Positions 1 to 60,469 of a stretch of 64,000 nt of DNA are shown in pieces. Numbering within the stretch: the stretch's first letter is position 1; the number at the start of each line of letters is the position of its first letter. The notes under the pieces are model-generated. The model was not told where the DNA came from and searched no databases. It saw only the letters and a program-made list of their open reading frames with translations. Source of the DNA: Polytrichum commune (lineage: Eukaryota; Streptophyta; Polytrichopsida; Polytrichales; Polytrichaceae); assembly GCA_950295325.1 (NCBI GenBank), contig OX485804.1, positions 5,582,001 through 5,646,000 of the forward strand, in the 5' to 3' direction. The position numbers and the translations under genes are program-made.

Positions 1-122
1 TGTGCCCTGTGGTTCAGGGATTCAAATTGTGGTAGCCTTCCAATTGTTGACCTTTTCATTGGTGCCTCTTATCAGTACCAACTTCTGTAATGTTCTGAAA
101 GCACAAAAAGAAGGAGACTTAC

Positions 123-272
123 TTTATTTTTGCTCTTCTGACTGCCAAATGTTTCTGTCAACATTTTTCGTTTCAATAACGCTGCCTCTTTTGTCTCCTC
201 TGCAATCTCTTCCTCGTCACTGGCATTGAGGTCATAGTTCACACCCCTAACTTTTGGCTCCATTCTGAGAAT
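123..272 (-). CDS. RPA49: RPA49 (RNA polymerase I subunit A49) exon 2, partial gene
   Basis: This 50-codon exon continues the protein of the exon at 1936-2322 and reads ILRMEPKVRG...NLNASDEEE-like acidic residues, then TFGSQKSKNK. The acceptor is CTAG at 276-273 and the donor is GTAAGT starting at 122. Both ends are phase 0, so it joins exon 1 without a shift. RPA49 proteins continue after the KLVP block with a hydrophobic-R-[LM]-EP-[KR]-V-[RK]-G segment, which is what is seen. The rest of the gene lies beyond the left edge. I am confident of the exon structure and fairly confident of the family. Confidence 0.72.
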
Positions 273-1935
273 CTAGACCAAATTTCAGTTAGACCAAATT
301 TCCCTCCTAAATTCCATGAAGACTCTTGCACAACTTCTCCCTCAGAGACAAGAAACCAAGGGAGGAAAATTAAGTTCATCATTCAGCTCCAGAGAATACT
401 CCTCCACCAACAAATAAATGTAAAGCATGTATAAGTCAGATTGTCATGAGTTTCCAGATTTAGAAAGTGTGTCAAAGCTGATTAACAATTGTGAGAGGAA
501 ATGAGATAAGAGTTGATAGTTTCCAGATGTCCAGTGTAGATGCTGCAAATGGACAACCTAATCATCAGATGAAGTGCTTACTTATCACAAGAAAAAAATG
601 CAGAGTAATTATGCTCTCCAAGATAAAGACATCTCATCCACACCGATTGCAGCAGGGTGAACAATAGATTACTCCTGAGGCTCAACAAATTCCGATTAGG
701 ACTACACTAACGCATCCAAGTGAGATCATTAATTTGCATATCAGAATGGCATCCATTCATGTCACTATGGTTTTCAATAAGTTGCCATTTTGAGCTGCTT
801 GCTCAGTCCCGAAGAGGAACAGCTGATTTTCAGATCTCCAATGCAGATGCTGTAAATACATAACCTAATCATCTGACGAAGTGCTTTCTTATGAGACGAT
901 GAAAATGCAGAGTAAGCACACTCTCAGAGGTTAAAAAAATTCCATCCACATCATTTGCAACAGGATGACCAAGAGAGAAATTGATGCATTTGCATTACTA
1001 CAGGGGCTGAAAGATATGCTGGCAGGACTGTACTAACACATCCAAGTGAGATCAATTACTTGATCATCAGAATGGCATCCTTTCATGCAAATATGGTTTT
1101 CAATCAGATGACATTTTGATATTCTGGCTCAATCCGGAAGAATCTAGAAAGACCTTCAACCTCGTTACATGTGCATAAAAGGTAGCTACAACTAAACTTG
1201 CACACAGCATTTTCAACATCCCGGTGTAAATGCTGCAAGTGCAGAACTTAATCATATGACGAAGCACTTTCTCATCACAAGAAGAAAATGCAGTGTAATC
1301 ACAGTCTCTAAGGTGCAGATATTTCATCAACATCTTTCCGACGGGATGACCAAGAGATAAAACGATGCATTTGATATTGTAGGACTGTACTGACGCAAGT
1401 AACTGAGATCATTTACTTGAACATCGGAATGACAACCATTCCTGTGCATATGGTTTTCATTAGCTGAAATTCAAGCTTTCTGGCTCAGTCCCGCAGAGTT
1501 TAGGAAAGCCTTCAACCTCGCTATGTGCACATTTAAGTGAGATGCAATTAAACTTGCACAAAGCAGATTCAAGCCTATCATAGAAAGTGGTACTTTTCTC
1601 CCACAAGCGGAACAATACATGGATAAATGGCATAACTACAGGGGTTTAAGAGATATGCTGGTAGGACTGTACTAACGCATCCAAGTGAGATCATTAACTT
1701 GAACATCAGAATGACATCCATTCATGTGATTATGGTCTTTAATTAACTGACATTTTAGTGCTTCTGGACCAGGCCCGACTTAAGAAAAACCTTCGACCTC
1801 GCCATGTGTGCATCCAAGTAAGATCATTAACTTGAACACCAGAATGATATCCATATATGTGAATATGGTGTTCGCTATATGTGTATTTGAGTGAGATAAA
1901 ATTACACTTGCGTGAAGCAAGATAGAGAATGGTAC
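273..1935 (-). repeat. RPA49 intron 1 filled with degenerate tandem repeats
   Basis: The 1.66-kb intron contains about five copies of a degenerate unit. Copies begin near 713, 1034, 1393, 1675 and 1808, so spacing is about 321, 359, 282 and 133 bp, and the last copy is truncated. Each copy (plus strand) carries a recognisable core: GATCATTAACTTGAACATC, then CAGAATGRCATCCATTCATG, TATGGTTTTCAATTA and CTGGCTCAGTCCCG. A second shared block, CCTTCAACCTCG followed by ACTTGCACAAAGCA, lies between cores. No coding potential is apparent in these copies. Confidence 0.7.
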
Positions 1936-2322
1936 CTTCTCTCCCGCAAGCGGAACGAGCTTGAGAGTACCCTTCTCCTTATCGTAAACTCCCAAAGCAT
2001 AGCTGCAAGGCTGCCAAGCTGCTGCTTCTCCTGCGTAATTTAGTCCTACAAAATCCACCTGCCCATGTGTGGACGCCACTAGCTGCGTATGCCTCGCCTT
2101 CATTTTGTCCGCCCCTTGGAACCACTTAACCCCTGCCAACCCCGTGCCATCGATGCCATTCTCTGCAGCTGCCACGGGATCATAGCCTGTTGGAAAGTAG
2201 GCGACAAATGGTCGAGCTCGCCCTTCCTTCGACGGCACGTAGTCCATCTTGATGTCCTCGTGCTCCTTCCGTCTCTTCTTCTTCTTCTTCTCCTTCTCCT
2301 TATCCTGCGATGTTGAGTCCAT
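1936..2322 (-). CDS. RPA49: RPA49 (RNA polymerase I subunit A49) exon 1
   Basis: This first coding exon has 129 codons and starts at the ATG at 2322 (MDSTSQDKEK). A lysine-rich segment (KEKKKKKRRKE) is followed by the A49 N-terminal domain: RPFVAYFPTGYDP, then KARHTQLVAST, VDFVGLNY and SYALGVYDKEKGTLKLVPLAGEK. In the RNA polymerase I A49/A34.5 heterodimer this region forms the dimerisation barrel. The exon ends at AAG with donor GTACCA at 1935, phase 0. The upstream TTG-initiated extension of three codons is not needed. Intron 1 runs 1935-273. The promoter has a telo-box and site II motifs, as is usual for plant ribosome-biogenesis genes. Confidence 0.78.
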
Positions 2323-2465
2323 AATTCGCAATTCTTTTCGTATAATCAGTCACAACACCAGCACGGTCTTCTTCTAGTGCACGAGAGTCGAGCAAGACGA
2401 TGCGAGTAGAAGACTTGGCGAGAACATGGCGAAGATAGGAGGAGAGAAAGACACACAAACTGAAA

Positions 2466-2670
2466 TTAGGGTTCGGGGCTCATAAAACCCTAAACCCTAA
2501 ACTCTAGCCTCGGGTTTCTTTCCTTTCATATCCAAAGCCCAGGTTCTCAGAAGCATCATCCAAGGGCCACTTTGACACAGAAGACTGAAGGCCCGTGACC
2601 ATTGCATTCTAAGATCTCTCATTGGTGGAAAAGGCCGAGACCGTCCAAGTTCACTTCAGGCCCAAAGAAA
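2466..2670 (-). promoter_or_regulatory. RPA49 promoter: telo-box and site II elements
   Basis: The plus strand shows AAACCCTAAACCCTAAAC at 2485-2502 (a telo-box array). It also shows GCCCA/GGCCCA (the complement of TGGGCY, site II) at 2537-2541 and 2659-2664. These lie 160-340 bp upstream of the RPA49 ATG. Telo-box plus site II is a well-known signature of plant translation and ribosome-biogenesis promoters (site II is bound by TCP factors). No TATA box is evident. Confidence 0.6.
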
Positions 2671-2759
2671 TTATCGTGATGAAAAGTCTACATGAATTCT
2701 TATGGGGATCGCTATTTCCACACCTTTTTGCCGGTTCGGTTGCCGTGTCACTGAGGCGC

Positions 2760-3088
2760 TATATATGAGATTCTTCATGGTGCATCCGGACCGTTGATCC
2801 ACCAAGGCCCATCCAAGGGCCTCAATGATCCTAGGTGGCGGTGGGGTGGGAGGCGGGGGTGGTGCTTGCCACCAAGGCGGGTGGGGCCGTGGGCCTCATG
2901 TCTTTTTTGGGGAGGCCGGATCTAAGGTGGTGTCGGGCCTAGTGGCTAGGCGGGCCCAGTGGCTAGGCCTACTTATTATATAACTAGTTGGTTAGCCTTA
3001 CTCTACTTACTAAATAACTTGTCCCGGAATTGATGGGAACTCGTACCTGTTAATGTAGATGGGTCTTAAATGGTTAATTTTCAAACTA
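2760..3088. other. Intergenic stretch left of the LINE
   Basis: A G-rich tract at about 2830-2940 (GGTGGCGGTGGGGTGGGAGG and similar) is followed by ordinary AT-rich sequence. No gene is seen. The 5' end of the LINE cannot be fixed. TTAATTTTCAAACT at about 3074-3087 resembles TTAATTTTTGCAAACT at the LINE 3' end (14193-14208), so a start near 3089 is a weak candidate. Confidence 0.3.
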
Positions 3089-3234
3089 GCCTACTTATGG
3101 CATGATATGAAACAAGTAGGTTAGTACGAGATGGTTAGCAAATCCAAATCAAAATTTAGGAGCTCATATGAATATCTTAGTCTATAAACTTACTTAATGG
3201 CATCAGACCCTTTATCCTCACCCTTGATGAGGTA

Positions 3235-4224
3235 ATGACTGTAGGAAAAGTTTGCAAGAGCTACAATACCATAGCTAGAAACAACTTACTCTCAGTGAAG
3301 ATCAACAGCCCCTCACTAGAGAATATAACAGGCCATGGGTTGTTTAAAGAGGTACTTGAAGAAAGCTTTAAACGCGGGCAAGAACTGGAGATCACGGGAG
3401 TCCAGAAAAACATCACGGAGACCTGGGCATGGTTGGTTGCACCAACCCCCGCACAAGCCGAGAAGATTGTGAAATTCAAGGCCACCTTTCGCAACGAAAT
3501 CATCCCAACCACAATCAAAACTGATGAGAGACTCTCCCTAGCTCAACTCGCCAAAAAAAATTGCCTAATGCTTGTGTTGCAAGGGTTGAAGCTAACCAAA
3601 ACCATAGAGGAAACACTACATGAAATCAAAGAAATCATGGGAGCTAGGAATGTCTCATCTAGCTTTTTCCCAAAACAAAGGGAAAACCTCCATAGTGGGT
3701 CAGTCAACATAGAGTGCCTCAACCCCACCGTCTACCACCAATTTGTCAACAAAACACTCAAAATTCATAACTCACATGTCTCCTTCACCCCACATCCTAA
3801 GAGCCTAGGAGGAGCATTACCACCCACCGAGGAACAACGGAAACAGTTCGGATTCTGCGACATCAACTCAGCTCTAGTAAATACCATAGAGGCCATCCAA
3901 AACGCACCAAACAACCAAAAAATGAAAACAAGAGCCGAAAATGAAGACATCAAGGAGCTCAAACTCGTTCTCAAATCCGAGTTAAAGAGGGAATTAAAAG
4001 AGGAACTCACAACCGACTTCAAAGAAGAACTAGCAAACCAAAGAGAAGACATTATCATCACCGCCAACACTTATGCAAAGAGACTCAACTCCAACCTACA
4101 AGAAGTGGTGAGAAAACAAATGGCGGAATTCTCTAAAATAATTTCGATGACACTCACAGGAAACGACGAAGAACCCGGACTCCTAGCACTCCCATCCTCA
4201 TCAAGCAACCCGCCAAACATGTGA
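3235..4224 (+). CDS. LINE ORF1 protein (RRM-like fold plus C-terminal coiled coil)
   Basis: This is an intact 329-residue ORF from ATG 3235. Residues ~50-100 (ELEITGVQ...ETWAWLVAPTPAQAEKIVKF) and ~110-190 (LMLVLQGLKL...VNIECLNP...VSFTPHPKS) both look like beta-alpha-beta RRM-type segments. Residues ~230-310 are charged and helical (ELKLVLKSELKRELKEEL...), suiting a coiled coil. RRM plus coiled coil is the usual design of LINE ORF1 RNA-binding proteins that trimerise and coat the element RNA. Its codon composition is less A/C-skewed than the linker that follows. The role is inferred from position and fold; no strict motif proves it. Confidence 0.7.
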   Translation: MTVGKVCKSYNTIARNNLLSVKINSPSLENITGHGLFKEVLEESFKRGQELEITGVQKNITETWAWLVAPTPAQAEKIVKFKATFRNEIIPTTIKTDERLSLAQLAKKNCLMLVLQGLKLTKTIEETLHEIKEIMGARNVSSSFFPKQRENLHSGSVNIECLNPTVYHQFVNKTLKIHNSHVSFTPHPKSLGGALPPTEEQRKQFGFCDINSALVNTIEAIQNAPNNQKMKTRAENEDIKELKLVLKSELKRELKEELTTDFKEELANQREDIIITANTYAKRLNSNLQEVVRKQMAEFSKIISMTLTGNDEEPGLLALPSSSSNPPNM

Positions 4225-4276
4225 AGGAAAACAACCCCGCAACAAAACCACCTAACCTAAGCACCCCCACATCAAA

Positions 4277-4383
4277 AGCATTCATAAATGCTCACAATAA
4301 AGAGAAAAAAAACAATAAGTAATAATAAAGCATTCCTAAATGCTCACAACAACAAAGAAAAAAATAAAGCATTCCTAAATGCT
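4277..4383 (+). repeat. Three tandem AGCATT...AATGCT hairpins after LINE ORF1
   Basis: Three copies of a 16-nt perfect hairpin sit just after the ORF1 stop: AGCATTCATAAATGCT at 4277-4292, and AGCATTCCTAAATGCT at 4329-4344 and 4368-4383. The stem is AGCATT/AATGCT in each and the loop changes by one base between copies. Flanks (AATAAAG..., CTCACAAYAA) are also repeated. They could act as RNA structures between ORF1 and ORF2, but no function is shown. Confidence 0.75.
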
Positions 4384-4597
4384 ACCACACATAAACAGAA
4401 CAAAAATAAACATACAAACCAAACATACACAAAACCACACAAAACCAAAACCAAAACCACAAACACAAAACCCACCAAAACTAACATAAAAACAATAATA
4501 CCCACCAACAGTCACAAGAAGATTAAAAACAAACAACAAACCAAACCAATAAGAATAAATTTTAAACACAACAACAACAAAACAAAAAACCTAAAAC

Positions 4598-6574
4598 GAG
4601 CTCGGCCTACCGGCCTCGCCCAATCAAAAAACAATCATAACCAAAAAAATGAATGGATTAGAAACCTAAAAACAAAAAAGAAAAGCATAAAAAGTAACAT
4701 TTCAACAAACAACCAAAAAATAACAAAGCAAAATAAAAACAAGCTACATAGAAGCAAATTTTATCACATAATACAACCAACACCGCTAATTAGGGCAAGA
4801 ATAGACAAAGAAACCAAAACAACACTAGCCACAAGGACACATAAGGAACTATCCTACACAACACCTCCGCAACCCAATAAACACCAACGCATACAACTAC
4901 ATAACACACATCACAACAAAAACACTAGACCCCATTTTAAACCCAACCTAACTGAAGAACTAGAATGGGCAAACAAACACATAACCTACCCTAAAAAAAA
5001 GGTGGGTATACACACAAAAAGAAAGGAAAGGAAGACAAAGAAATAAGAACAACCCAACAAACCAACCTACATACACAAAACATAACAAAACTATCAAACC
5101 TAACATAATCCCAAACATAACTAAACACACACATAAACACAAAACAATAAACACCAAAAATCTAAACACACCCCAAACAAACTCTAAAGATCACTTCAAA
5201 CACATACATAAAAAAGACAAAAAAATCATATCAATACTAATGGCGCGGCCTACTAGCCTCACCCAAAACCAAGCAAAACAAGTACAACTTAGTAACTTAA
5301 ACACTATAAAAATCAATACACAATGCAAAACCACAAGAAAAACAACACCCAATCAAAAACATAATACTAAAACACCAACCATAATAATTACAATCCAAAA
5401 AATAAATAAGCACTCTTCCTATCTCAAAACATACCCCGCAGATCTTCGTAGACTATACAAATACAATAATATCAATACAACAAAACAACTATCCAACCAC
5501 AATAAAACAAACACCATACCACCCTCAAAACCCACCAAATATCCAAACGCAATCACTCAACAAATAAAACCGCATATGAACCTCACAACTAATAGAATAA
5601 TAATAATAACAATAATGAGCAAAAACCTCAAAAAAGCTCGACCTACCGGCCTCGCCCTAAACCATAATAATAGAAACTCCGGTCCCTATTTCAGGGGCCC
5701 AGCCCTAAACCAACGTAAAACTAAACAAAACAAGAACAAGCCCACACACCTAAAATCCATAAAGCAATACACGAACTCAAACAAAACAACATCACAACAC
5801 AAAAGAAATAAAAAAGTAAAAATCCAAACACAAAACATCAACCATAAACATAAAAATTCCTACTTCAATGTAAACCTCCCACAACTCCCTGTCACACAAA
5901 GCAAAAACAAAATAATATACCAAAATACACAGAGAACAAACACACACCTAAAAACACACAAGACCAAACCCACTTACGACAAAAACAACAAAACTAACAA
6001 ACCTAACTCAATACCCAACATAACTAAAAACACAAAACAACAACCACCAAACACCTAGACACACTCCAAACAAAATCTATAAAAAACTTCAAAACCATGC
6101 ACAAAAATAATAAAATAATAAAAATAAACAAAACAAATAACATCAAATGGTCTCGGCATACAATTGACCCCACCCAAAACCAAGGAAAACACAAACATAG
6201 TAAGCTTAGAAACATAAACACCACAAAAATATATTACACAAGCAACATAACGCCCAATCAAAATAACAACAAAATAATAACTACAACCCAAAAAATAAAA
6301 CCAAACAATAACTCCCCTTATCCCAAAATATACTCCACACATAAAACATATAAAACATATAAATACGATAAAACCTATACAACAAAACAACTAACTAACC
6401 ACAAAACAACAACCACCACACCACCCCCAAACCCCACCAAACATCAAAACGAAGGCCCTCACCCAACAACAACACATCAGAACCTCGTAATTCATAATAA
6501 ATATAAAATAATGAAAAATAATGAAAAACAAAAAACAATACTCCTCAAAAGAGCTCGGCCTACCGGCCTCGCCC
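4598..6574 (+). repeat. LINE linker: degenerate ~0.9-1.0-kb tandem repeat with five GCTCGGCC-type boxes
   Basis: Boxes resembling GCTCGGCCTACCGGCCTCGC occur at 4598-4621, 5243-5264, 5635-5657, 6149-6175 (degenerate) and 6551-6574. The first and last are identical over 24 nt. The sequence between them is duplicated: 5092-5200 matches 6003-6100, 5240-5520 matches 6150-6430, and box 3 to box 5 repeats with a ~910-bp step. The box includes the self-complementary GGCC-TACC-GGCC. It is read as (R)ARPTGLAQ in three overlapping open frames. Long open frames here (4288-5046, 5240-6058) are largely a product of the A/C-rich composition, which makes stops rare. Confidence 0.7.
5664..5701 (-). mobile_element. 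Tiny (38-bp) 5'-truncated LINE 3'-end insertion inside the LINE linker
   Basis: Positions 5668-5699 are the exact reverse complement of the LINE's own 3' end (14152-14183), including its hairpin and the start of its tail. The insert is flanked by a 10-bp direct repeat, GCCCTAAACC, at 5654-5663 and 5702-5711, as expected for target-primed reverse transcription. The tail side reads ATAATAATAG, so the insert is antisense. It shows that a copy of this family jumped into this element (or its progenitor) and was cut to its last ~35 bases. Confidence 0.8.
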
Positions 6575-8907
6575 AAAATCAAGTGAAACAAACATCCCAA
6601 CAAAAAAAGAATAAAAGACAAAAAACCAAAGCACAAAACACAAACTATAAGCAAAAAAAATCTTATTCCAAATCCTACTCAACTAAACTCCTACTTATGC
6701 TAAGTGGAGACATTGAATCTAACCCGGGACCCATGCCAAACCTATTACAAAACCACCCAAATACACATAAAAATAGGTGCAAATTGTACTTTATTTCATG
6801 CACAATCAAGCTACAACCAGAATACCAACACTTAGCAAAACAATTTTCACCTAACATAAACGTGACACACCCAAACCACAACGACGCAACCACCAAATAC
6901 CCACACCTCTCAAACTACATATACCAAAACCTACACCACCCACCCCCAAGAATACTATTTGCACTCATCACTACCATCAGCCCTGCCCTCGAAACATGTA
7001 ACATTCTAATATCACAATCCCCAACACCGGACTGGACTACAACACTACTAGAACAAATGGCAACACTACAAAACCCACCAGAAAGACACATTCAAAACAC
7101 ACATCCATACACACTATTTACACAAACAAACCAAAAAATTATTAACCCCCCAAACTCTATACACAAAGAAATATACGACTTCATAGAAGAAAACAATCAA
7201 AACATTAACTTAGAAACATTAACAAACAAATTCCCATTCTTACCTGAAAAACTACTCAAGGAAACACTAAAACATAAAGAACCAATAAATGAATACTCGC
7301 ACCCCCCACAACTCTCCAATAAACCCCCACCACAAACACAAGATATCAACATAGCAAATCACAACACACATATCATCACCTGGAATGCCGCATCACTAAA
7401 TACAGCCCTACCAAACCTACACCTACTTATAGCACAAAAACCAGCTATTATCACAATACAGGAAACCAAAGTAACGGCAACTAAATCCACAAAATACATA
7501 CAAAACCTATTTCCAAGCTATAAACTAATATTCAACAATACACACACACTAACCAATTGTATGCAACAAAGAAGGCAGTACACACCCACAAGGGGAGGAT
7601 TACTTACACTCATAAATAAAGACTACGCATACCCTGGAAATATCGCCAAAATTCCTACCCCCGCAGATATCTCACCATACTTGCAAATAATCACAATAAA
7701 AAATCAACCTTTGCACCCTTGGCTAATAATGCACATGTATATGCCAACGCATACCGAAGATATAAGATACATCCCAATAATAAAACAAACTATAACACAA
7801 CAAATCGCAACACATCCAAACTACACACACATTCTATGCGGTGACTTTAACAGAGATATAGCCCTAATTGGAAGACAAAATGACTATATCATCACACCAC
7901 CACAACCAGAAGACATAGAATGGAGAACATTTACAGACTCCATCCACCTCACATACATCCCCACAACCAGTAATTACTCTAGGCAAGGAGGTCAAAATTA
8001 CACCCAAACAAGCCTAATAGATGGATATTATATAAAATCACCCGACAATACTCTGTACACATCCACCACAAATAATGACCATAACCTAAATTCGGACCAT
8101 TCGCCAGTAACTCTACACATACCACCAAACAACCTACTAACTCACCAAGCACCACCAACAACAAATGACACAACGAGAATTTTAAACCCTCTCCCACAAG
8201 AAAACATTGAAAAATTCAAAACAAAATTTTACGAAGAAAACACACTACAAATAAACGAGCTCACAAATACATTACTAAACGACCAACTAAATAGCACCCA
8301 ATGGCAAACATCATGCACCATACTAGACCAAATAATACAAGAAATATCAAACAAAATACAAGAAACTTGTAGAGCACCCTCCCTACCAACTCTCACAAAC
8401 CACACATCACAACAAGGAGGATTTCTGCCTAGAAAAAGCCAAAAGCAATGGAAAAAACACCTCACCACATACCACCTAATTAGGAAAACAATTTACCTCG
8501 CAAAACATACTATACACTGGCAAACGCACCCCATAATAGAAAAACTTATAAACCATAAACATGCTACCATACCACCCCTACCCAACCAAGAACTCCTCCA
8601 ACAAGAATGGCTCATAACAATAGCAGTTATTGCTAAAACAGCAAACACTCAGGCCCGTACAATTACCACAAAATTCACTCGGGATTGTGTAAAAAAAGCC
8701 ATATCCAAATATAGGCAACTATACGAAAAAAATCCAAAACGAATACATAAAAAAATCTTTAATAACCAAGAAACACCACCACTAGATTGTATAACAGACA
8801 GACATAACAACATACTCACAAACCCATTAGACATAGCCAACGAAATCCATACCCAACAATCTATCAGTAATAGTCCCACAGTCCCAACATGCTACCATCA
8901 ACCATAA
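6097..8907 (+). pseudogene. LINE ORF2, first part: 2A-like peptide and APE endonuclease
   Basis: This reading frame is 936 codons and ends at a premature TAA (8905-8907). Residues 1-190 are low complexity (K/N/T/Q), with RARPTGLAQ near 153. A 2A-like motif follows: LLLMLSGDIESNPGP, with Asp 205 and the final Pro 212. Residues 213-420 are unassigned, with a winged-helix-like stretch (YDFIEENNQNINLETL). The APE domain at ~420-675 has all key motifs: TWNAAS (Asn), QETK (Glu), MHMYMP (Tyr), GDFNRD (583-585), LIDGYY (Asp) and SDHSP (666-669). APE nicks the target DNA for priming. The frame continues after the stop without a shift. Confidence 0.85.
6670..6732 (+). other. 2A-like ribosome-skipping peptide in a plant LINE
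   Basis: Codons read TKLLLMLSGDIESNPGP. This meets the 2A consensus D-[VI]-E-x-N-P-G-P with the typical Leu-rich upstream helix. In 2A peptides the ribosome fails to join the last Gly and Pro, releasing the upstream peptide and continuing. Here skipping would separate a ~211-residue low-complexity leader from the APE/RT polyprotein. 2A-like sequences are known in some animal and trypanosome non-LTR elements. Activity is inferred from the motif. Confidence 0.8.
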
Positions 8908-8949
8908 CACACACCAGAATGCACATGCGGAGTAAGACAATACCCATGA

Positions 8950-11031
8950 CACGACTTAGATGGACTCGTCCTAGATAAAAGAGGAAATCCACAGACCCCA
9001 CTACACAAATATTTCGATAAAGAAACATATGACATATGCCTAAGGAACTTAGCAAACAATAAAGCACCCGGCCCGGACAAAATTCCTAATATAATCCTAA
9101 AAAATATGCCAGAAGACTTCCACAAATTACTCTTCCTATTTTTCTCTCACTGCTATAAACAACAACAAATACCATCATCTTGGAAAATAAGCCTAACTAT
9201 ACTACTATATAAGAAAGGAGACCCATCTCAACTAACAAACCACAGACCAATAACACTTGCAAATACAATATACAAATTTTTTACCAGCACCCTAACATTT
9301 ATACTATCAGCATATGGGGAAAAACACCAAATCCTACACGACAGCCAAGAGGGATTCCGCGCAGAAAGAAACACTTCGAGACAACTACAACTACTTATCG
9401 CCACACTAGAAGATGCAAGATTTACAAATCAGGACATATACATACTATACATTGACTTTAAAAATGCATTCGGCTCTCTAGACCATGCAAGATTACTTGC
9501 CGTGATAAAAGACCTAGGATACCCGGAACAAGCAGTGACTTTAATAGGAAACATCTACGCACAGTCTAACACCATATTTATTGGAGAACACTTTGGAAGA
9601 ACAAAACCAATACCCATACAAAGAGGCACCATACAAGGTGACACACTCAGCCCCTACCTATTCCTAATATTTTTAGAACCTTTACTGAGATGGCTACAAA
9701 GGGGGAGAAATGGTTACACACTCGGTACTTCCAAACTAACCATAAGCTCGGCAGCATACGCAGATGATTTAGCAGTTATCACAAACAACCTTCAATCGAT
9801 ACAAACCCAACTCAACAAACTCGACAAATATTGTGAATGGGCAGGAATGGACCTTGGGGTCCTAAAATGTGCTATCACCGGTTGCCCAAACAAATCAAAC
9901 ACAAGACCGAATACTTTTAAAGCAAAAATCCAAGCACAAAACATCACATATAGAAACCAACTCATACCGATACTACACCAAAACGAACCATACGTCTACC
10001 TAGGCATCCAATTAGTACCCTCCCTAAAATGGCAACTTCAAACACACATCACTACAACCAAAATAATCACCCAATGCAAACAACTAAGTACATGTCCGGC
10101 AACAATCAAACAGAAAATTAAGATGGTAGACACCGTTATCAGAGCTGGAATAGCATACAGCTTCTACGCAGTACCATACTCTCTACCGTCCATTATAAAA
10201 CTAGACAAAAAAATTATTGGTATCCAAAAAACAATATGCGGTCTACCAAAATGCACCGCAAATGTCATAACTCAACTACCTCACGATCTATTCGGCTTAG
10301 AAGCCTTTTCACTAAAAAACGCCTACCTAAGATGTATTAGTGAACAACTTAGAAATGCCCTAAACGACAAAGGAAGACTCGGGATAATATATAAAGGACT
10401 CGTACAACATATCTTATCCAAACACGGAGGCGCTAAAGATATACCTAGAATAAAATATCAAAACTGTATTAGATCCCCAATCACACGAACATTATTCCTT
10501 ATGAAAATTGAAGGTGGAGTTCATCTCAAAAGTATAGAAGCAAACTTCCACCTTCACCAAACAGAATTAGAAAAAGAGTGGAAAACCGCAACCGAAATAC
10601 CCCACCTAAACCCCAAATTATCACTCAAACTACTCCATAAACTTATAACACTCAACATACACACAATAAAACAAATCTCCCTTCCCAACGGTACAAATTT
10701 AATGTCACCAGAAGAATTTAAAATATACTACAAATGCCCAACCAAATTAGAAATAAGTGCACTAAAAATAGCCACACAATTATTTTGTAACCTAACCTGT
10801 AATCAAAACTGTCCCACCCTATGCCCCAACCACATCCAAACAAGAACACTCAAAACACGATACATTTCAGAAAATAGAGAACTACATCCCATAATAGTAG
10901 AAAGACCAATACACCATACACCACCACAACAACCCCAACACCCATCTCCACCTACAAATATAATAAACAACCCAAGCAAATTCCCAATAGAAACCATAAT
11001 CAGCCACAAACTTAAAGAAACAAAAGATTAA
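8950..11031 (+). pseudogene. LINE ORF2, middle part: reverse transcriptase
   Basis: This is the same frame as 6097-8907, resuming after a second stop (TGA 8947-8949). It opens HDLDGLVLDKRGNPQ and then NNKAPGPDKIPN (RT block 0/1). It continues with HRPITL, EGFRAERNT, YIDFKNAFGSLDH (catalytic Asp at 9454), QGDTLSPYLF, and AAYADDLAV (Asp pair at 9763-9768). The thumb and a long connector follow. RT copies the element RNA at the nicked target. The frame ends at TAA 11029-11031, and the coding pattern resumes at once downstream (WTLRDHTIYNKWMPQRELF). All catalytic residues are present although the frame is broken. Confidence 0.85.
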
Positions 11032-11385
11032 AATAAAATAACAAAAAACTTTAACACATACCTATGCCAATGGACATTACGGGATCATACCATATATAAT
11101 AAATGGATGCCACAAAGGGAACTCTTCCAATTTAACTTGCCTCTTATAATCAAACACAACATCAACCTTCTAACAGAATACTATACGAAATACCAGCACA
11201 GATACTACAAAAACATCCTTGACACACACTTCACCGCCATACAAAACAAAGACACAAGATCTATACCACCGCCCGAAATAATCCCATATACCCAAATTAA
11301 CATAACAGAATGTAACCCAGAAAAAGACATAAACACCATAAAAAAATACAATACAAACACAAAACGAAGTATCCCACCTATATGA
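11032..11385 (+). pseudogene. LINE ORF2 connector segment before the frameshift
   Basis: This stretch is in the same frame as the RT segment and contains QWTLRDHTIYNKWMPQRELFQFNLPLI..., ending at TGA 11383. The related decayed copy at ~17.15 kb has the same order of words (the plus-strand CTATGCC...GG[AT]GG[AT]CA-type start and CAACGAGAATTG-like text). That comparison shows the true frame changes at the seven-A run 11340-11346. After it the coding frame is +1 (LYEDTGRHLTT...). So one extra A most likely caused the shift. Confidence 0.65.
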
Positions 11386-13726
11386 AGATACTGGAAGACA
11401 CCTCACCACCATCACAACCACCAGATTAAAATGGCTCTGGCAACAATACCACGCAAACGCCCCTAACATACATGATCTAGTTCCCCCAATACAACCTTTC
11501 GAAACAGAATTAATATGGTTATATCAAAGATACAAAAATAAAACCAACAAAAAAGACCCCCTTAAATCAACGCACTACACTATCCCACTGAATATCCTAG
11601 ACACTCTTACAACAACACTCAACATCTCCCAATCATATTTCTCGTCACCACTAACATGCCCAACACAAATTACCCAATTCTACTCACCTCACACTAGGGA
11701 TAAAATCTTCGGATCACTAGGAACTGCCCTCCAATACAAATGGAAGGGCATTGGATACGCACACCCACACAACGAAGAGTTAGCCCAGCAAGCAATACAT
11801 TGGGCTCGACTGTCAGCCAAATATGACCCAACCACAATCACTATACTAGTAATACCAGATATTAACTGGTACCACAACAAAACACCATTTACAGGGCCAT
11901 TTCCTGACACACATGTCATTGCCCACTTTGCCGCAGACACTATAACATATGACGAACCAACATCCCCCAAGGGCACACCCATACCACAAACAGAACCACT
12001 AGCCATACACATACTATGTATACACCACCAAAACCACAGCTTTGGCACAACCAACCAAATAGACACAATAAAAGCAACAATTGAAAACATGCATATACCA
12101 CAATACTACATACAAAAATCCCCACCTACGCCTCCTAACACAACAATAAATAAAAACATCAAATGGAACAAAACAACATACCCACCACATAACAACAACA
12201 CTAATGTAAACATACCTACACTACCAAACTTTGAAGTGAACACCACACTAAAATTCCCACCACAACACAGCTACTATACAGACGGATCCTTCATTCCGCC
12301 CAAAAAAACCAGAGATGGACATTGGAAAAAAGAAAAAGCGGGTTACGGAATATATAACCCAACAAAACCAGAAATACAAATATCAAAAAGACTCCCAGGT
12401 TTACAAACCATTTTTAGAGTTGAACTAATGGCCATACACAAAACAATAAAAATAATTACTACCAAATACCCTCACGAACCAGCCCACATCTTTACTGACT
12501 GCCTAAATTGTCTATATGTCATTAACACACAAATAAAACACCCAACAAAGCAGAATAATCATGCTGACAAAACCATCCTCACAGACATGGTTAGAATGTT
12601 AAAAACCCGCACACAACCTACTACTATCTACAAAGTCAAAGCACACATCAACATTGATGGAAATGAACAAGCAGACATACTTGCCAAAAACGGCACCAAA
12701 AAACGATACAAATTTGCATCAAAACCACATGAATTCGCACACACCACACCATACTACTTCCACAAAGACACATGGCCAGGCCCAACTAAAAGACCCGACA
12801 AAGGCCCTGTTAGATGTCTAGAAACATACATCCAAAAACACGATCGCGAAAAAAATCTAGAAGTAATGGCACAAAAATTCCCAAACATTTCCAAATGGAC
12901 AATGAACCCTGATATAGATAACGAATTATCCAACAAATTTTGGTCAAACCCTACAATATCAGACGCCCAAAAAATAACCCTCTTGAAATTCCGCACTGGC
13001 CAATATATGGGTAATGCCAGAAAACAATTATTCTTTGGCATCCAAAGATTCCCATCAAGAACATCCCCAATATGTAATTCCCTAGACGCCGACACATGGC
13101 TCCACGTACTTCTAAAATGTAACCAACACCACATACATGCGCTTAGAGTTAAAAGACATAACAAAGCAGTATGGGAAATAAGAAAACTTATACTATCATC
13201 ACAAAAATCAAGATGCTATATCCTAATGAATGCAGGAACATTCAACAACAACCCACAAGAAAACACAGTCCCCCCATGGTTACTACCATGCACATGTGGA
13301 CAACAAAGATGCCACTGCAATGCTAGACTTAAGCCCGACCTACTTTGCATTAAGGGATTCCCATACCAAAACAACCCACCACCATCCCCAACAGACAACC
13401 TCACAGTCCAATTTATCGAATTCACATACACCAATGACAAATTCTCCCAAGAAACAATAAACAACAAAACCCAAAAATACCAACCACTCATGGATAACAT
13501 CATGGAACAAGGTTGGAAAGTAGACCCGCTCATGGTTATCACGGCAGGCGCTAGAGGCACAACCCATGCCCCGTCAATGCAACAAATTATTACAACATTC
13601 CAACTACCTGTAAACACCGTCAAACACACATTTGAAGCAATCAACACCTCTGCCATATACCATGCCGGGTCAATCCTACTTCACAAAAGAAGAATCGAGA
13701 ACAACCAAGCAATCCCAACTGAATAA
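11342..13726 (+). pseudogene. LINE ORF2, last part: RNase H and REL-like C-terminal endonuclease domain
   Basis: This frame is open from the A-run at 11340 to TAA 13724-13726. FGSLGTALQYKWKGIGYAHPHNE is shared with the relic at 17.8 kb. The RNase H domain has its four acidic residues: YTDGSF (12281), VELMAIH (12422), IFTDCLN (12497) and GNEQADILA (12674). Next comes CNSLDADTWLHVLLKC, like the zinc-binding end of many LINEs, then CTCGQQRCHC. Then KPD (13331-13339) is followed by FIEFTYT (Glu 13418) and KTQKYQPL. KPD-x(n)-[DE]-x-T-...-K-x2-KY is the layout of the R2-type restriction-like endonuclease (REL). RNase H is a firm call; REL is probable. Confidence 0.75.
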
Positions 13727-14200
13727 AAGTTGGGGTAATAATGTTGACCACCATTTATTTAATAAACATCAATAAGCTCAAGAGGAGGGATCAGTGCCGG
13801 TTGGTTGATACAAATTTCTTGCCTTAACTCACCAGCAGCACCAAGTCATGTATTACATTGTATACGATCAAATGGACTCAACAGGAACCAAACCTGGACC
13901 ATCTTAATACTAACATCCTCCCTCAACCAACCAAGGAAACATGACTTAGCGTACACCTACACAAACAAACCGCAACTTATACTATTACCAACAAACATTA
14001 TCGCTGGCTAATAAGCTGCGAGGGGCTACCCTTATTTTTTCTGGTTACTATAGTGTCCATCCTCGAAAGGGGAGAGTAGTTTTGTCCCAACTTCCCCCTG
14101 TCCTGTGGGCATCGGGTCGTTGGCATTTCGAACGGACACTTTATTCACGCCGGCCCCTGAAATAGGGACCGGAGTTTCTATTAATTAATTAATTAATTTT
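13727..14200 (+). other. LINE 3' UTR with terminal stem-loop and TTAA tail
   Basis: After the ORF2 stop the strand bias disappears and composition becomes ordinary. The end carries a stem-loop, GGCCCCT-GAAAT-AGGGACC (14152-14170; one C-A mismatch), then GGAGTTTC and a TTAA microsatellite tail (14178-14200). A 3'-terminal stem-loop followed by short tandem repeats instead of poly(A) is common in LINE clades whose RT recognises its own 3' end. The same 33 nt were mobilised into 5664-5701. Confidence 0.7.
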
Positions 14201-16689: not shown

Positions 16690-18350
16690 GGGTACTTAAA
16701 ACACATGTATGAAAACAAACTACTCTTAGAAAACATGTATGACATAAAACAACTCACTTTAAGGAATGGCACACACTTGATGTCCTATGTTGAATATATA
16801 AAATATTACAAAAAACCAACACATATGATAAAAACAATAACTAAAAATAGTATAACAACTATTTTGCCACCCAAGATGCAATGAAAATTGTCAAGAGCTA
16901 TGCCAAAACCATTACCCACCATGCACACTAAAACAAGAATACATTATAACATAACATAATTTAGAACCTCTAAATAATGATATCCACACACACCCACCAA
17001 CCTTAAAACATCTAATACACCCGCCCACACCAACACACATAGTAAACAACCCAATAAAATACCCTATACACTCAATAACAAACCATTATATGATACCAAC
17101 CAAAAATAAACATAAAATTATAAAAAAAATAGTATACATACCTATGCCGATGGATACTACCCAACGATACAACTTATAACAAAAAAAAACTCCCACAAAG
17201 AGAATTGTTTCCCTATAACATCCCAATAGTCATACAACACAATACAAATATAATACTCACATACTTTACCAAGAAACAACATACACTATACGAAAATATC
17301 ATATGAAAAAATATTTTTTCTACCCAAAACAAAGACCCAAGGCACGTATCCCTGCCCCTAAACATCCCCCTCGTAAAAGTTTCAACACACGAATGCAATC
17401 TTGAAAAATGTGTCAATACTAACACAAACAAAATTCAAGTACAAGATGACAACGCCCACATATATGATGAACATGCAAACACCTTATAACCATTCCTTAT
17501 AATAAATTTGCATGGCTATGGACCCAATATAACCAAATGCTACACCAACCACACGACCTAATACCCCCCACCCAAACATTTGAAATAGAAATAACCTAGC
17601 TATATCCAAAGATATAAACATAAAATCCCAAAAAATGATCCACTCAAAATCTCACACCACGCCCTACCCAAAGTACTATTAGATTACATCACAACATCCT
17701 TTAATATTACCCATTCCTACTTCTCTTCACCAATTACATGCTCCACTCGACTAACAAAATTATTTTTGCCATTTCCCAAAGATAAATTTTTTGGATCTCT
17801 TGGTACTACATTCTCACACAGATGGCAAGGAATAGGTTATGCTCACCCTCACAATGAAAATGAAGCCCAAACAACCATTCATTGGGCTAGATTAGTAACT
17901 AAACACAACCCATATACCATCACAATACTCACCATCCCAGATTTAAAATGATATCAAAATCTCACCCCATATATAGGCCCCTTTCCAGACACACATGTAA
18001 TCACTAATATACCAATAGATACCACTAAATACAAAAAACCAACTAAACCTCCCGAACTCAATGAGCCACATATGGAACCACCTGCAATAAGAATCCTCTG
18101 CATACACCACCAAAATAATAACATCGGTACCATAGAACAAATGGCCACGATAAAAAAAAATTATGTAATAACCTTAACATAAATTGCACAACCACACAAA
18201 TTGCTCCTCCTACCCCGCAAAATATAAAAATTAACAAAAACAATACACGGAATGCCCTCACTTAAGTCCAAACACACACTATCATAACACAATCCCACCA
18301 ATCCCAAACTACAAGAATGAAACATCCCTTAAATTCTCTCATTGCAACCA
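16690..18350 (+). mobile_element. Decayed internal fragment of a second copy of the 2A-LINE family
   Basis: This region aligns by eye with LINE positions ~10640-12240 (connector between RT and RNase H). The best preserved part is 17766-17951: FGSLGTTFSHRWQGIGYAHPHNE...TIHWARL...TILTIPDLK, against FGSLGTALQYKWKGIGYAHPHNE...AIHWARL...TILVIPDIN in the first copy. It is followed by GPFPDTHVI in both. The A/C-rich sense bias is retained. Many stops and shifts are present and both ends are missing, so it is an internal relic rather than a simple 5' truncation. It is useful because it reveals the original frame of the first copy at 11340. Confidence 0.8.
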
Positions 18351-38789: not shown

Positions 38790-39302
38790 CTACAATGAAG
38801 GACAATTTGATTAAAACGTGGCTATGTTTGACGTGTTCATGCTTTATCTTTTAATACAATCATACAAAAGATTTTTTCAAAAGATTTTTTTATGATACTA
38901 TTTCATGCACAAGTGCAAGATAGGAAATATCATAAGCAAGTTTTATAGTCTGTATACATGAGAGGGAACCCCAACACAAAAGATGTCACAATGAAGAATT
39001 GCATTGCCGTTACTTTCTTGACCACCATATAGTGTGCAACAAAGGAAAATTCAATGACATGTATTATACCAAGATGGAAAATTGCTACTTATAGTTTCTT
39101 CCTTACATATTTGTGATGCTCACATGTTCAAAACCAATAAATTCGATCAATGAGGACATACATGACCTATTTCATAACCAAGGATTTTGTTATCAATCCT
39201 TCAATATTCAAATAAAATGGGAGAATCCATACGCAAACCAATAAAAACATTGTAAGTTTCTTATGGTCACCATTGGCCGTTGGTATCATTCAATTTTTAT
39301 AC

Positions 39303-40592
39303 CTGTAATCGTGGGAAGAACCCAAGAGTGAGGATGGTTCGAACTTTATCGTCGCATAACATCCTCCGACCCACATACTGCCAATTTGAATGGTTTTCTT
39401 GGGAAGGCCAATGCAATTGTCGCTTTCCCAAACTAGATAGATCGTTGTCATCTTGGAGCAAGGTTGGAATCAACACCGTATCATCATCATGATCATAACA
39501 AAACTCCAACTTTATCATCATTTGCAACAAGTCTTCAAAACTAAATCCTCGTAGGTTGGGTTGGAGTGACGCGTTTACAATATGCTTGAAATCAACCTTG
39601 GTCATGGTACCATTTGTGATTCCATCCAAGCTATGAAGCTCTTTGCATTTCAACACACGTCCGATGATATCATGACAAAACCAATGAGGATTCAAGACCA
39701 CAAAATCCAGCTCGTCATTGTACATCAAGTGGCCGCTATCATGTAAAGAAATTGCCACAACTTCTTTTTTTCTTTTCACAACCTCCGGACCAAGCCCCTC
39801 GTGAGATTTCAACTCTTCCACATTGTCACACAACTCTGAAAACTCGTTCCACCGTACAAGGGGTTGGTTGGGGTGCTCACGGTTCCAATTGGCAATAAGA
39901 ACTTGCATCCTTGAACAAGCCTCAAAAACATGTGGCAACTTTTCCAATAGCAATTTCAAGTGCACCTTCATTGTTTGGAGCAACATATTGATGGAGTCTA
40001 CTGACAAGGCATTGATTGCAAACACTTGTACATCAATCTCAAGAATATCTTGGAATAGGTTTCTGAGCCTTTCAACCTTATCTCTAATTCTTGGCAAACT
40101 GATACTTTGATAGTTGGGACCTACCATGTCAAGGTTTGTCAATGCAATCATCACATGTGGCTTATATGCTGTTGATATTCTTGAATTTGAAGCAATGAAC
40201 CGCAACCAATATAACAATTCATCTCCAATTACTTGGATACTCTTGAGGCGACGCGTTCCAAGTTGGAGTGGATTGCACACGAGTAAGAAGGAACAAGAAC
40301 TCCCAGAGTTGCCCGTAAGATTTGGAATAACAAGGTCATGGAAAGAATGATAATCATCTTGACCTGCCATATCGATCCCAAATGGTGACCATGATATCAT
40401 CAAATGACATACCATGTACTTCAATGCCCCGCGTTCGTGGTGTTACTCCTCTTGTATCATCATTCGATTTGCCCTTACGGAACATGCTTGATAGAAATCT
40501 TGTAGATGCATGTTGTTTTTTACGTTTAGACATTTCATTAGGGTCTGAGGGTTTGACTGCTTTCATTATGGTTTGACGAAGAGTTGTCTTGC
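39303..40592 (-). CDS. ROCO exon 2: Roc GTPase and COR domain (contains frameshift)
   Basis: It begins GC-AAG-ACA, completing Walker A as GYPLAGKTT. It continues TLRQTIMKAVKPSDP, a basic segment, GIEVHGMSFDDIMVTIWD, then in the next frame MAGQDDYHSFHDLVIPN (G3, DxxGQ). Between TGG and ATG there are seven bases (GATCGAT) where three are expected. Next are FLLVCNPLQLG, ALTNLDMVG (TNLD in place of NKxD), and COR: WNEFSELCDNV, AISLHDSGHLMYNDELDFVVLNPHWFCHDIIG. The exon ends FFPRLQ with donor GTATAA at 39302 (phase 0). Confidence 0.75.
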
Positions 40593-41525
40593 CTGCTCAA
40601 GAATCGCACAAGTACACATGAGTATCATGACACCAACCTAACATGCTAAAGTCCGATATTGGTTGCAGAAATTAAGAAAACCTTACATTTGAAGCAAACT
40701 CTTAAGAGCAAAAGAGATGGCACCACCTTTGAATTTGAAAAACACGTAATTTCAAACCACCATTGAAATATGTTCGGTTTATTTCTACCAAAAAAATGAA
40801 ATGATCAATTTGGCTAGGTTGAGAATTGTCCCTGAAACAATTTGCATGTGAACAATTCCCCATTATTGTTTTTCCAGGTCATATTCATCAAACTATTTTC
40901 CACAAGTTGAACTTGAAAGTTCAACAGAAATTTGAGTCAAATTAAAGAGTTATCATGGATTTTATTTGTTTGGAAAAATCCACATGTAGTCTTGATATGC
41001 ATATATGACTCTACATGAGGCTCTGATTTGTGATTGAAAGTGTACATGTGTAAGTATCAAAGATCATTCCAATGCAACTACACCAAAGTACTTAAGCATC
41101 CCCTAAGTGGCAAGAATGATACATCATAGATTAACCAAACTTAATAAGTTACTTCAAATACCTAAAAGACAAGCAATCTAATCAACATCAAACAAATATT
41201 AGAGTTGGTTGTAAAAGTATGGGATTGAGGTGGGGTCAAAATCTTCTAATTTGGCCCTTTTTTGAGTATAACAACACAATCTTAAGAGGACCACTTTGAG
41301 TTTTAGGCGCCCATTTGTTTCATCTTGATATAGCTTATAATATTATCATTTTTTTGCAGAATCAAATATGCACATGTCTTATTTAGGACCTTCTTGCGCA
41401 GCTCACACTTGTCCACACCTCAAATAGAATCGAACTCACAAATATAAAGCACAAAAGTTTCTCAAAGTTTTCTTTATCCTAGAAGGAGAAGCACAAGGAG
41501 TTTTGGTTCCTGAAATTGGGGTCAC

Positions 41526-43095
41526 CTGCCAAGGGGTAGCCACAGAGGAAGATTCTGGCGGAATTGGGTCTGGCAGTGGCCATGGCCTGCAACACCTCCC
41601 ACATGTTGAGCTTGGCCTTCTGCTCCAGCACCGCCTTCACCATCTCCGCCCCTCCATCTCTTGCTAGAGGTGTTTCCTCCAGATCGAGCTTTTTAAGATG
41701 ATGATTCACATCCAGTAGATCGAATATTGTCCCCAACACCCTCCGCCCAACCACGCCGGCACAATTCCATAAGGAGACGTCCTCCAAGCACTGGTTGCTT
41801 TTGAGGGCCTCTAGCAGTCGGATCACGTTGTCTGCAACTCGCAATAAGTTTGAGGACTCCAAATTCAATATCAGCAAGGAAGTATTTTTTCGTACGAGGG
41901 TCTCCAAGAGCTCCACGTCCTCTATCCCTAAGTCACCCGCGATAGCAAGATGTGTAAGAGACGAATTGGGTTGAAGGTCACAGTCCATGTTGTGGGTCAG
42001 AGATGCAACCAGAGCCTTCAGTCCCGCTGCACCGATGTTGTTGCCACCTATGTTCAGTTGTTGAAGCGTATTATTGGAGCATAGTGCCTCTGCAATGCAC
42101 ACCGCACCCTGTGGCCAGATACTGATATCCGAGAGACGTATGCATGTAAGGGAATTGTTGTGCCGCAACATGGACGCAACTACCCCTGCCCTTTCATCGT
42201 CGATTCCTGTGTCGTTTAGATCCAGTTCTTTTAAACCTTGGTAGGACCCTTTCCCACCTATCATGAGGGGTTTAAGGAACAATTTAAGCCCCTCCGTGTC
42301 AAAAAAATCCCCCGTTCCATTGTAAATGCTAAAACGCGTAAGGGTCGAATTCCTGCGGAGACCGGATACTAAGCTTTCAATTGCAGCTCGTTCGAGTGGA
42401 AGTCCATCTCTTCCATAATTAGCCAGGTAAACAGATTGCAAGCTCGGGTTCTCCAGGATCACTAGAATCATGTTCATCACAAGTGTTCTGAAACGTGTTA
42501 CAAGTGTGCTATCAGGTGTTGTCACGTAAATAGTTCGAACATCTACCCTTTTAATCCTTTGGTTGGAGCGTATGGCATTCGCAAACTCTTCCATGAACAT
42601 AACTGGAATTTCTTCCTCCACACAAGAATTTCCCGTGAAGTTGAGGATGACCCTGCAATGAGAGGGTTCGGAACTTCGGGAAATGTCGATGCACAAATTC
42701 CGATCATTCGAAACCCTTTTCACAATAGTCTTCCTCCATACATCGGGATTTATAGGGCTAGGCGCATCAACTTCGCCGGAAGATTCATAATCAACCTTGA
42801 AAGTCAGTTCCTCATCCGGGGAGATCGCAGAGAGAATCGGCTCCAGACCAAAATCCGGTGCATCATGTGCATCATGTGACCTCCATGATGTCGAATCCAA
42901 AGCATCCACAACCACCGTGCCCTGAACAAGCTGGTCCTCACCAGGATGCGGTGCTGAGCCGCCCGCCTGTCCAAGGACACAGCTGGTATCCTCAGATTGG
43001 GGCTTCCATGAAATTGAAGGGCAGTGCGACTTCAACCAAACCGCAACTCTCACCAACACCAACAGAGAAATGAAAGCAATCCACAACTGCATCAT
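41526..43095 (-). CDS. ROCO exon 1: membrane anchor and leucine-rich repeats
   Basis: The start is ATG 43095 (MMQLWIAFISLLVLVRVAVW), a hydrophobic anchor or signal-like helix. The earlier TTG codon is not needed. From about residue 220 there are RI-type LRRs: GLKELDLNDTGIDDERAG, SLTCIRLSDI, LQQLNIGGNNIGAAGLKAL, LLILNLESSNL and LKKLDLEETPLARDGGAEM. The end reads ARIFLCGYPLAG, the first half of the Walker A motif, with donor GTGACC at 41525 (phase 1). Reading on into the intron gives a stop at 41479, so the exon must be spliced. Confidence 0.75.
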
Positions 43096-43131
43096 GACCC
43101 TTGTGTCGGTGGTTTGCAACAACGATAACAA

Positions 43132-43884
43132 TATTAGTGTGTGCTACAAAACTAGTGCACTTCTGAGGAAGCACCAAAAGCTTCCCTTCCCAGGCTAGTT
43201 CCTACGAGTCCCACGCATGTTCTCTCCACGCCCAAGTTTGGAGGAAGAAATTAGAGGATCCACACTCCCCATCCACCAGCACAACAGTTCCCTCTACAAC
43301 TGCGTTGTATGCAGGTCTTCATACACGGATCGTGGCAAGAGTGAGCTAAAACTTTTTCTCGCTCAAGTTCTCCGATTCTAACAATCCCACTGCTCAGTGC
43401 AATTTCCTCTCTCTTTGATATATGTCCCACGGAAAAGCTGTCTCCGGGAAGAAGGAGTGCGAGCACAGAATAGGTTGAAGGGCACACGCTACCAACGAGG
43501 CACTGCACGAGGCCGCCTAGAAATCCCCCGTCCCCATCTAAACTCCACGGATTCGGAAGGTTGTCCGTCGTCAACAGAACCATGGTTGCACCGGAGATCC
43601 TGAAGCTCCACAATACTGCATGGATTCTGAATGAAAATAAACGGTGTGCGGTATATCATATTCAGAATATTGAGGTAGCAATTGGGCAGCACCAACATCA
43701 GGCGGATGTTAAGTCCCCCCACGAACTTTTCGGGGGAGGAATAATATTTGGGCAGGGGCAGCCGCCCGTCAGATTTTTTGGACCCGACCAAAAACTGTTG
43801 CTCGCTTACAAAAATTGCTTACAATTGAAAGGGTCTTTGTCTTTCTAGAATGGAACTAGAATTAATGATTTATTTTTAATATCT
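43132..43884. other. Region upstream of the ROCO gene; no second gene recognised
   Basis: GC-richer than its neighbours, with overlapping short open frames on both strands and no family match that I can name. It may hold the ROCO 5' UTR and promoter. Confidence 0.35.
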
Positions 43885-49157: not shown

Positions 49158-49640
49158 ATGACTAAGGAGGGTGTGGGGCGGCCGGGGTGGACGGGGTGGA
49201 GCGGACGGGGGTGGGGCGGACGGAGGGGGGTGGAGCGGACGGGGGTGGAGCGGACGGGGGAGGGGGTGGAGCGGATGGGGGTGGGGTGGACGGAGGGGGG
49301 TGGAGCGGACGGGGGAGGGGGGTGGAGCGGACGGGGGAGGGGGTGGGGCGGACGGGGGTGGGGCGGAAGGGGGTTGGGAACGGGGGGGAGAACGCTGGAG
49401 CGGACGGGGGAACGCGGGGGCGGACGGGGGGAACGCGGAGGGCTCCGTCCGCCCCAAGTTCCCTCACGTCCGCCCCACGTTCCCCCGCCGTGCGTTCACG
49501 TTCCCACCCGTTTCCTAACGTCCGCACCCGTTCCCTACCACGTTCCCCCCAGTCCGCACCCGTTCCCTCCCGTCCGCGCCCGTTCCCCCCCAGTCCGCAC
49601 CCGTTCCCTTCCCGTCCGCCCACGTTCCCTCCTGTCCTGT
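49158..49640. repeat. GC-rich ~15-22-bp minisatellite, inverted (G-rich half then C-rich half)
   Basis: 49180-49440 repeats GGAGCGGACGGGGGT-like units, and 49441-49640 is built of the complement (CGTCCGCCCCACGTTCCC). The switch is at GCGGAGGGCTCCGTCCGC, so the whole could fold into a very long imperfect hairpin. Long open frames on both strands here come from the repeat. Same family as the arrays at 50592, 53518 and 59886. Confidence 0.8.
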
Positions 49641-59532: not shown

Positions 59533-59885
59533 GTCATTACTTGTACATCGTTGTCTCCATAGGGGTGATAATTTTTTGGTCATCATACTACATTGGTTAG
59601 TTTGTTGCTTGAGGGATCCTCCATTAGTTTTGTGTGGATAAGTACACCGGTAATGATATTTAGTGTCACATATATTATTTGCGAAGGGCCTAAGTTAGAT
59701 GGGGTGCGGATGGGGGGACGCGGGAATGTGTAGTAGAAATATTATTGCATATTCATGTAGAGGACTTCATTACCTATCCATGGATACCAAGAACTCATTT
59801 TTTGGACTTCATATGAATTTTTGAGAGCCAAAAAACCGAGACTATGTCCAAACTTCCAAAAAAAGTTAAAAAGTGCAGATTCAAA

Positions 59886-60460: not shown

Positions 60461-60461
60461 G

Positions 60462-60469
60462 TATATAAG
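60462..60469 (+). promoter_or_regulatory. TATA box of the RING-type gene
   Basis: TATATAAG is directly abutted by the minisatellite on its left and is followed by a CCACTCCACTCC-rich leader. The first ATG in the coding frame is about 460 bp downstream. Confidence 0.55.

Follow-up and report, generated by a model that had tools for sequence, protein, structure and literature searches.

A decayed copy of an abundant and very probably dual-endonuclease LINE with Dualen-like architecture in the land plant Polytrichum commune

A 64,000-nt stretch of Polytrichum commune DNA (contig OX485804.1), referred to below as the window, carries on its forward strand a non-LTR retrotransposon with the order ORF1, 2A, APE, reverse transcriptase (RT), PCIF1-like domain, RNase H and RLE (restriction-like endonuclease) (Table 1). 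It is very probably a decayed copy of an abundant dual-endonuclease LINE of Dualen-like architecture residing in a land-plant genome. Matches by sequence or by fold place 2A, APE, RT, the PCIF1-like domain, RNase H and the R2-type RLE in one ORF2 polypeptide; Pfam families followed one another in the window ORF2 as Exo_endo_phos (E = 6e-4), RVT_1, PCIF1_WW and RNase_H (E values of the last three in Table 1). The original prediction of a LINE with an N-terminal APE, a C-terminal REL-like domain and RNase H was thereby supported, the APE and RNase H by Pfam and the RLE by fold. The stretch reported with it, 12260-13726, lies within an open frame of 794 aa (11342-13726) that forms the final part of ORF2, and the PCIF1-like domain, the 5′ truncation and the broken state of the copy had been overlooked. 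Copies with open frames were found elsewhere in the genome.

Table 1. Positions of the features identified in the window
Feature	Position	Strand	Evidence
Element copy, 5′-truncated and decayed	3190..14199	+	ORF1 homology start; conserved 3′ end and tail
ORF1, C-terminal part only	3190..4224	+	Protein homology to L013 ORF1
A+C-rich spacer	4225..6675	+	
2A (StopGo) peptide GDIESNPGP	6706..6732	+	Motif
APE-type endonuclease (WN, QETK, YMP, GDFN, IDG, SDH)	7363..8136	+	PF14529, E = 9.6e-7
Two stop codons in ORF2	8905-8907, 8947-8949	+	Frame reading
Reverse transcriptase; YADDL at 9757-9771	9010..10300	+	RVT_1, E = 3.4e-27; PDB matches
Stop codon and frameshift	Stop 11029-11031; frameshift between 11338 and 11347	+	
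PCIF1-like domain; NPPF position reads HPHN (11762-11773)	11486..11857	+	PF12237, E = 8.2e-10
RNase H; D-E-D-H-D read by eye	12269..12697	+	PF00075, E = 2.2e-14
Predicted R2-type RLE with Cys/His linker	12896..13711	+	Alignment, AlphaFold model, fold search
RLE residues D, E, K, K	D 13337-13339, E 13418-13420, K 13466-13468, K 13475-13477	+	
3′-terminal hairpin	14148..14173	+	
3′ tail, (TTAA)n	14178..14199	+	
Further fragment from a related element, more decayed; runs from the last part of the RT to the PCIF1-like region	16717..18336	+	

The 5′ limit of the window copy was set by the start of ORF1 homology at about 3181-3190, and the N-terminal part of ORF1 is missing. Because of this loss, the stop codons and frameshift listed in Table 1, and the replacement by Ser of the first Cys of the RLE CxxC, a residue retained in all other aligned copies (27/27), the window copy is taken as inactive, judging from its sequence. 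The sense strand between 4001 and 14000 is strongly rich in A and C (GC skew -0.38 to -0.57, AT skew +0.35 to +0.58). Elsewhere in the window, two minus-strand ORFs at 39297-43140 showed COR-A domain and LRR matches, possibly representing a ROCO/LRR protein, and GC-rich low-complexity repeats with several frames open on both strands were observed at 48995-49881 and 59742-60727.

The genome searched was a 408-Mb assembly with seven contigs of 42-78 Mb and a further contig carrying plastid rbcL and an ORF that resembles accD by eye. The rbcL scored 1082 bits with PDB entry 9chz, 1062 with 4hhh (pea) and 1027 with 1gk8 (Chlamydomonas), which supports a land-plant host, perhaps a bryophyte. At least 124 matches were found with the RLE region of the window (family A), at least 122 with that of a second family (family B), and at least 150 with the PCIF1-like domain. 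Identical loci were merged in the counts of distinct copies (L001 with the window copy, L006 and L019 with L013, and L011 with L021). Five long copies, L013, L014, L042, L043 and L044, were picked for their long frames. Both nucleases were present in one open frame in four of the five (L013, 2,919 aa; L014, 2,924 aa; L042, 2,422 aa; L043, 2,305 aa), and L044 is broken ahead of RNase H. The RT of L042 has lost sequence behind YADDL, and L043 has its 2A in a frame different from that of ORF2, so that every part lies in one frame only in L013 and L014. The breaks in several places of the window copy might suggest an artefact, in which two elements were joined by insertion or misassembly. This explanation is hardly credible, since single frames of 2,305-2,924 aa with both nucleases occur at four separate loci, the same order is kept in two diverged families, and the RLE matches of the two families number at least 124 and at least 122.

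Ratios of dN/dS (Nei-Gojobori), given for the pairs L013/L014 and L042/L043, respectively, were 0.11 and 0.16 for the APE, 0.04 and 0.05 for the RT, 0.10 and 0.15 for the PCIF1-like domain, 0.16 and 0.10 for RNase H, and 0.11 and 0.12 for the RLE, with synonymous sites near saturation in L013/L014. The constraint on both nucleases is thus similar in strength to that on RNase H, and this speaks against either of them being vestigial.

ORF1 of L013 is 555 aa long. The window ORF1 is 36-43% identical to it, compared with about 75% for ORF2, and either faster change or exchange between subfamilies is suggested for this lower identity. No Pfam match above the cut-off was obtained for ORF1. When window positions 1-6800 were compared as DNA with the sequences upstream in L013, L014 and L042, no match was obtained, and the ORF1 homology was visible at the protein level only. 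In the spacer, for which L013 and L014 share 28% identity, the peptide ARPTGL/ARPTSL recurs four times ahead of 2A in the window, at 4600, 5243, 5636 and 6553, in two frames.

The 2A core has been given as (D/G/C/N)(V/I)ExNPGP (PMC12846837). The window peptide and those of three of the five other copies, L013 (GDIETNPGP), L042 (GDIELNPGP) and L044 (GDIELNPGP and GDIEINPGP), agree with this core; L014 (GDIKPNPGP) and L043 (GDVKPNPGP) have Lys for Glu and deviate from it (2/6 copies). L044 carries two 2A motifs, at 710 and 1511. Counted by motif alone, back-translated GDIExNPGP had 255 matches genome-wide, and the reversed pattern, used as a control, had 0; the synonymous codons varied among the first 100 places listed. 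The 2A named in the prediction is real.

The N-terminal nuclease has the full APE set that had been predicted. All six copies examined matched both PF14529 (Exo_endo_phos_2) and PF03372, and the catalytic residues (motifs in Table 1) were invariant in 6/6 copies. Searched against the PDB, the APE profile matched exodeoxyribonuclease III with an E value of 1.8e-4; human L1 endonuclease reached only 0.44.

Among solved structures, the best matches of the RT were two R2 proteins. The window RT scored 116 bits with the best R2, 72 with silkmoth R2 and 69 with L1, and the family-B RT scored 109, 67 and 71 bits, respectively, so that the preference for R2 in bit score is limited to turtle and zebra-finch R2. 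RT trees of 17 and 16 rows were built with these elements, five L1 rows taken from this genome, three animal R2 rows and three group II introns as the outgroup; a single RTE row (RTE_L073) was present in the first tree and dropped from the second for its long branch, and L042 was excluded for its RT deletion. The record behind L073 (NZ_CP104070.1) is that of a bacterial plasmid with only two annotated features; it holds a LINE fragment of plant RTE type by eye and is probably eukaryotic contamination. In both trees, these elements formed a clade of their own (99/99 and 97/97), and the three R2 rows formed another without them (96/96 and 96/95). Branching tests rejected neither a grouping of the elements with R2 (p-AU 0.471) nor one with L1 (p-AU 0.129), the free tree joined R2 and L1 with 52/27, and long-branch warnings were issued. 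Among the rows sampled, the RT stands in a clade separate from both L1 and R2.

The element could also be read as a common plant L1 whose C-terminus is unusual, since RNase H is reported from plant L1 (PMC4640811), and the clade of these elements with L1 was not rejected (p-AU above). This reading is nevertheless very unlikely. The five L1 rows fell in a separate clade (100/100) without these elements; an L1 from the same genome scored 175 bits with human L1 and 63 with R2, whereas the element scored 69 with L1 and 116 with R2; and in RNase H, read by eye, a His was found where the archaeal type has Arg, following the rule given in PMC4640811. With respect to the original prediction, in which grouping of the RT with the L1/I clades was taken to speak against it, the RT thus lay outside the sampled L1 rows in its own clade, but an affinity to L1 was not rejected by the branching test. 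RNase H itself was confirmed within the stretch first predicted.

The domain between RT and RNase H matched PF12237 in 13/13 aligned copies over about 130 residues. Against the PDB, PCIF1 chains were the only hits, with E values of 0.012 and 0.35, and the kinship to PCIF1 is therefore taken from Pfam. When the domain was checked for methyltransferase features, the NPPF catalytic motif was found to be absent: the position reads HPHN, HPPN, HPHT or HPHS in 21/21 distinct family-A copies read (L039 not among them), FPTD in L042 and L043, and HPKD in L044. The match in every aligned copy and the low dN/dS of the domain (0.10 and 0.15) would fit a methyltransferase that is still active despite its changed motif and acts on the element's own RNA, but with NPPF replaced in all of these copies, such activity is improbable. 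Purifying selection together with the loss of NPPF suggests that the domain most likely binds RNA or the cap without catalysis. Compared with the cap methyltransferase PCIF1/CAPAM, it shares the PF12237 match and the PCIF1 chains as sole PDB hits and differs in the lost NPPF and in being embedded in a LINE polyprotein. Viral contigs scanned with the PCIF1-like and RLE alignments yielded no relative.

The C-terminal domain was examined in an alignment of 28 genomic copies, of which 13, including the window copy, belong to family A and 15 to family B, the two families being 38-41% identical. Residues are numbered by the translation of window positions 12722-13723, and conservation was counted over the 28 copies. 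The layout CxxC..H..C, RHN, KPD, IEFT and KTQKY was found in the window sequence. Twelve residues, C118, H128, R145, H146, C190, C192, C197, C199, E233, K249, K252 and Y253, were present in 28/28 copies, C115, C133 and D206 in 27/28, and N147 and P205 in 26/28. The KPD...IEFT...KTQKY arrangement behind RNase H, which had been noticed in the prediction, is present in the sequence.

Searches by sequence, namely phmmer, a PDB profile search and Pfam, revealed no nuclease for this domain. The profile hit a single PDB entry, a terpene synthase (E = 0.57), and with Pfam the window member matched no family, a chance hit (E = 0.22) being obtained for 1 of 17 members. The RLE was identified by its motif layout and a fold search. 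An AlphaFold model from 17 family-A rows (mean pLDDT 51.9) placed R2 at Foldseek ranks 1-4 with E values of 1.8e-3 to 3.4e-2, without a match at E ≤ 0.001, and a second model including family B (28 copies) was used. Its confidence was middling, at a mean pLDDT of 67.9, with the core blocks mostly at 70-94 and two loops at 45 and 55. Among 350,542 chains, R2 chains took ranks 1-6 in Foldseek (E values 1.3e-5 to 2.3e-3, probability 1.00), followed by BstEII (E = 0.06) and then mostly by viral cap-snatching nucleases. VIA gave seven R2 rows with Z values of 10.9-13.3, the best being R2Tg with 13.3 over 204 residues; the next was the Ebinur Lake virus cap-snatching nuclease, which has a PD-(D/E)XK fold, at 8.0, values of 7-8 being common without kinship. 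The best structural alignment with R2 spans model residues 59-330 and includes the linker. These results support a predicted R2-type RLE of PD-(D/E)XK fold with a Cys/His linker. PD-(D/E)XK similarity in the C-terminal domain, on which the original prediction depended, was thus found, as an R2-type fold, by both Foldseek and VIA.

In the model, D206 directly precedes a strand (207-211), E233 lies within strand 228-236, and K249 and K252 are on helix 243-262. To judge from the fold and the R2 motif, these four residues presumably form a putative metal site. If the element were an APE-type LINE that kept its C-terminal domain only as an RLE remnant, binding RNA or DNA without cutting, this would account for the lack of a nuclease match at the sequence level and for the departure from a literal (D/E)xK triad, in which FT comes after E233 and the conserved lysines stand 16 and 19 residues on. 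R2, however, is an active nuclease with a likewise displaced lysine. The near-invariance of D206 (27/28) and the invariance of E233, K249 and K252 (28/28), across families about 40% identical, as well as the modeled positions of these residues on two strands and the helix after them, also make a remnant unlikely, and a predicted nuclease is preferred.

At the 3′ end, the hairpin folded in 5/5 ends tried (3 of family A and 2 of family B). Tails were of the CTAT type in 11 of 13 distinct family-A copies, the exceptions being the window copy and L005 with (CAT)n, and poly(A) was absent from all 13 distinct family-A copy ends read. The open-frame copy L013 is flanked on both sides by a 14-bp target-site duplication, TATGTAGATGAAGG, which on the 3′ side comes after a (CTAT)n tail; its length falls to 11 bp if the shared TAT is counted to the tail. 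The 5′ end of L013, defined solely by this duplication, gives an element of about 13.5 kb. Insertion into microsatellites, considered since the tails vary among copies, was set aside because L013 duplicated a site that has no microsatellite character. A 7-bp repeat was seen around the window copy, too short to be claimed as a target-site duplication.

R2 is not known to carry an APE or an RNase H, and it inserts into 28S rDNA. The element resembles R2 in its C-terminal linker and RLE fold and in the R2 structures matched best by its RT, and differs in that the 3′ flanks of its copies vary. With plant L1 it shares the APE, RT and RNase H modules and is separated from it by RT clade; we know of no plant L1 with an RLE, 2A or PCIF1-like domain. 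A 2A-like peptide in APE-type LINEs was reportedly described by Odon et al. in 2013, and the element is similar to these in carrying such a peptide.

Dualen is described in PMC4640811 as a group with both APE and RLE, RNase H being reported as well. Dualen/RandI is reported in Chlamydomonas and relatives (PMC8226300) and listed for green algae only in PMC4438587. In the literature consulted, the two nucleases are described together from green algae alone. RandI tails are (ATT)n or (CTATTT)n, with poly(A) lacking from 8/8 families in table 3 of PMC3747384. The element and Dualen/RandI have in common that APE and RLE occur together, the RNase H and a short-repeat tail without poly(A); the land-plant host sets the element apart, and 2A and the PCIF1-like domain may do so as well. 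By architecture, the element is Dualen-like. No report of Dualen in land plants or of PCIF1 with LINEs was found in the literature searched, which left out most subscription journals. Within this limited literature, the land-plant host, the 2A and the PCIF1-like domain lacking NPPF are apparently new; the predicted novelty of a plant member carrying 2A has the same basis, its host being a land plant and its 2A real.

During retrotransposition, ORF2 would be split co-translationally at 2A, and the replicase may recognize the 3′ hairpin. One nuclease would nick the first strand and so prime reverse transcription, RNase H would remove the template, and the other nuclease could cut the second strand. 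Tentatively, and with considerable doubt, a land-plant LINE lineage without described counterpart can be pictured, in which APE and RLE would cut separate strands, 2A would divide the polyprotein, and a captured cap-methyltransferase domain, catalytically dead, would bind the element's own capped or nascent RNA, thereby joining template and replicase.

In PMC4640811, Dualen is cited as the link for the replacement of RLE by APE in LINE evolution. With many open-frame copies in a land plant, the question of which nuclease serves which strand would become testable in a multicellular plant. No evidence of StopGo was found in plant viruses according to PMC12846837; the 2A found here is likely a natural plant use of StopGo. 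Finally, conservation of the PCIF1-like domain despite the loss of its catalytic motif suggests a role in RNA recognition that is undescribed for LINEs in the literature searched.
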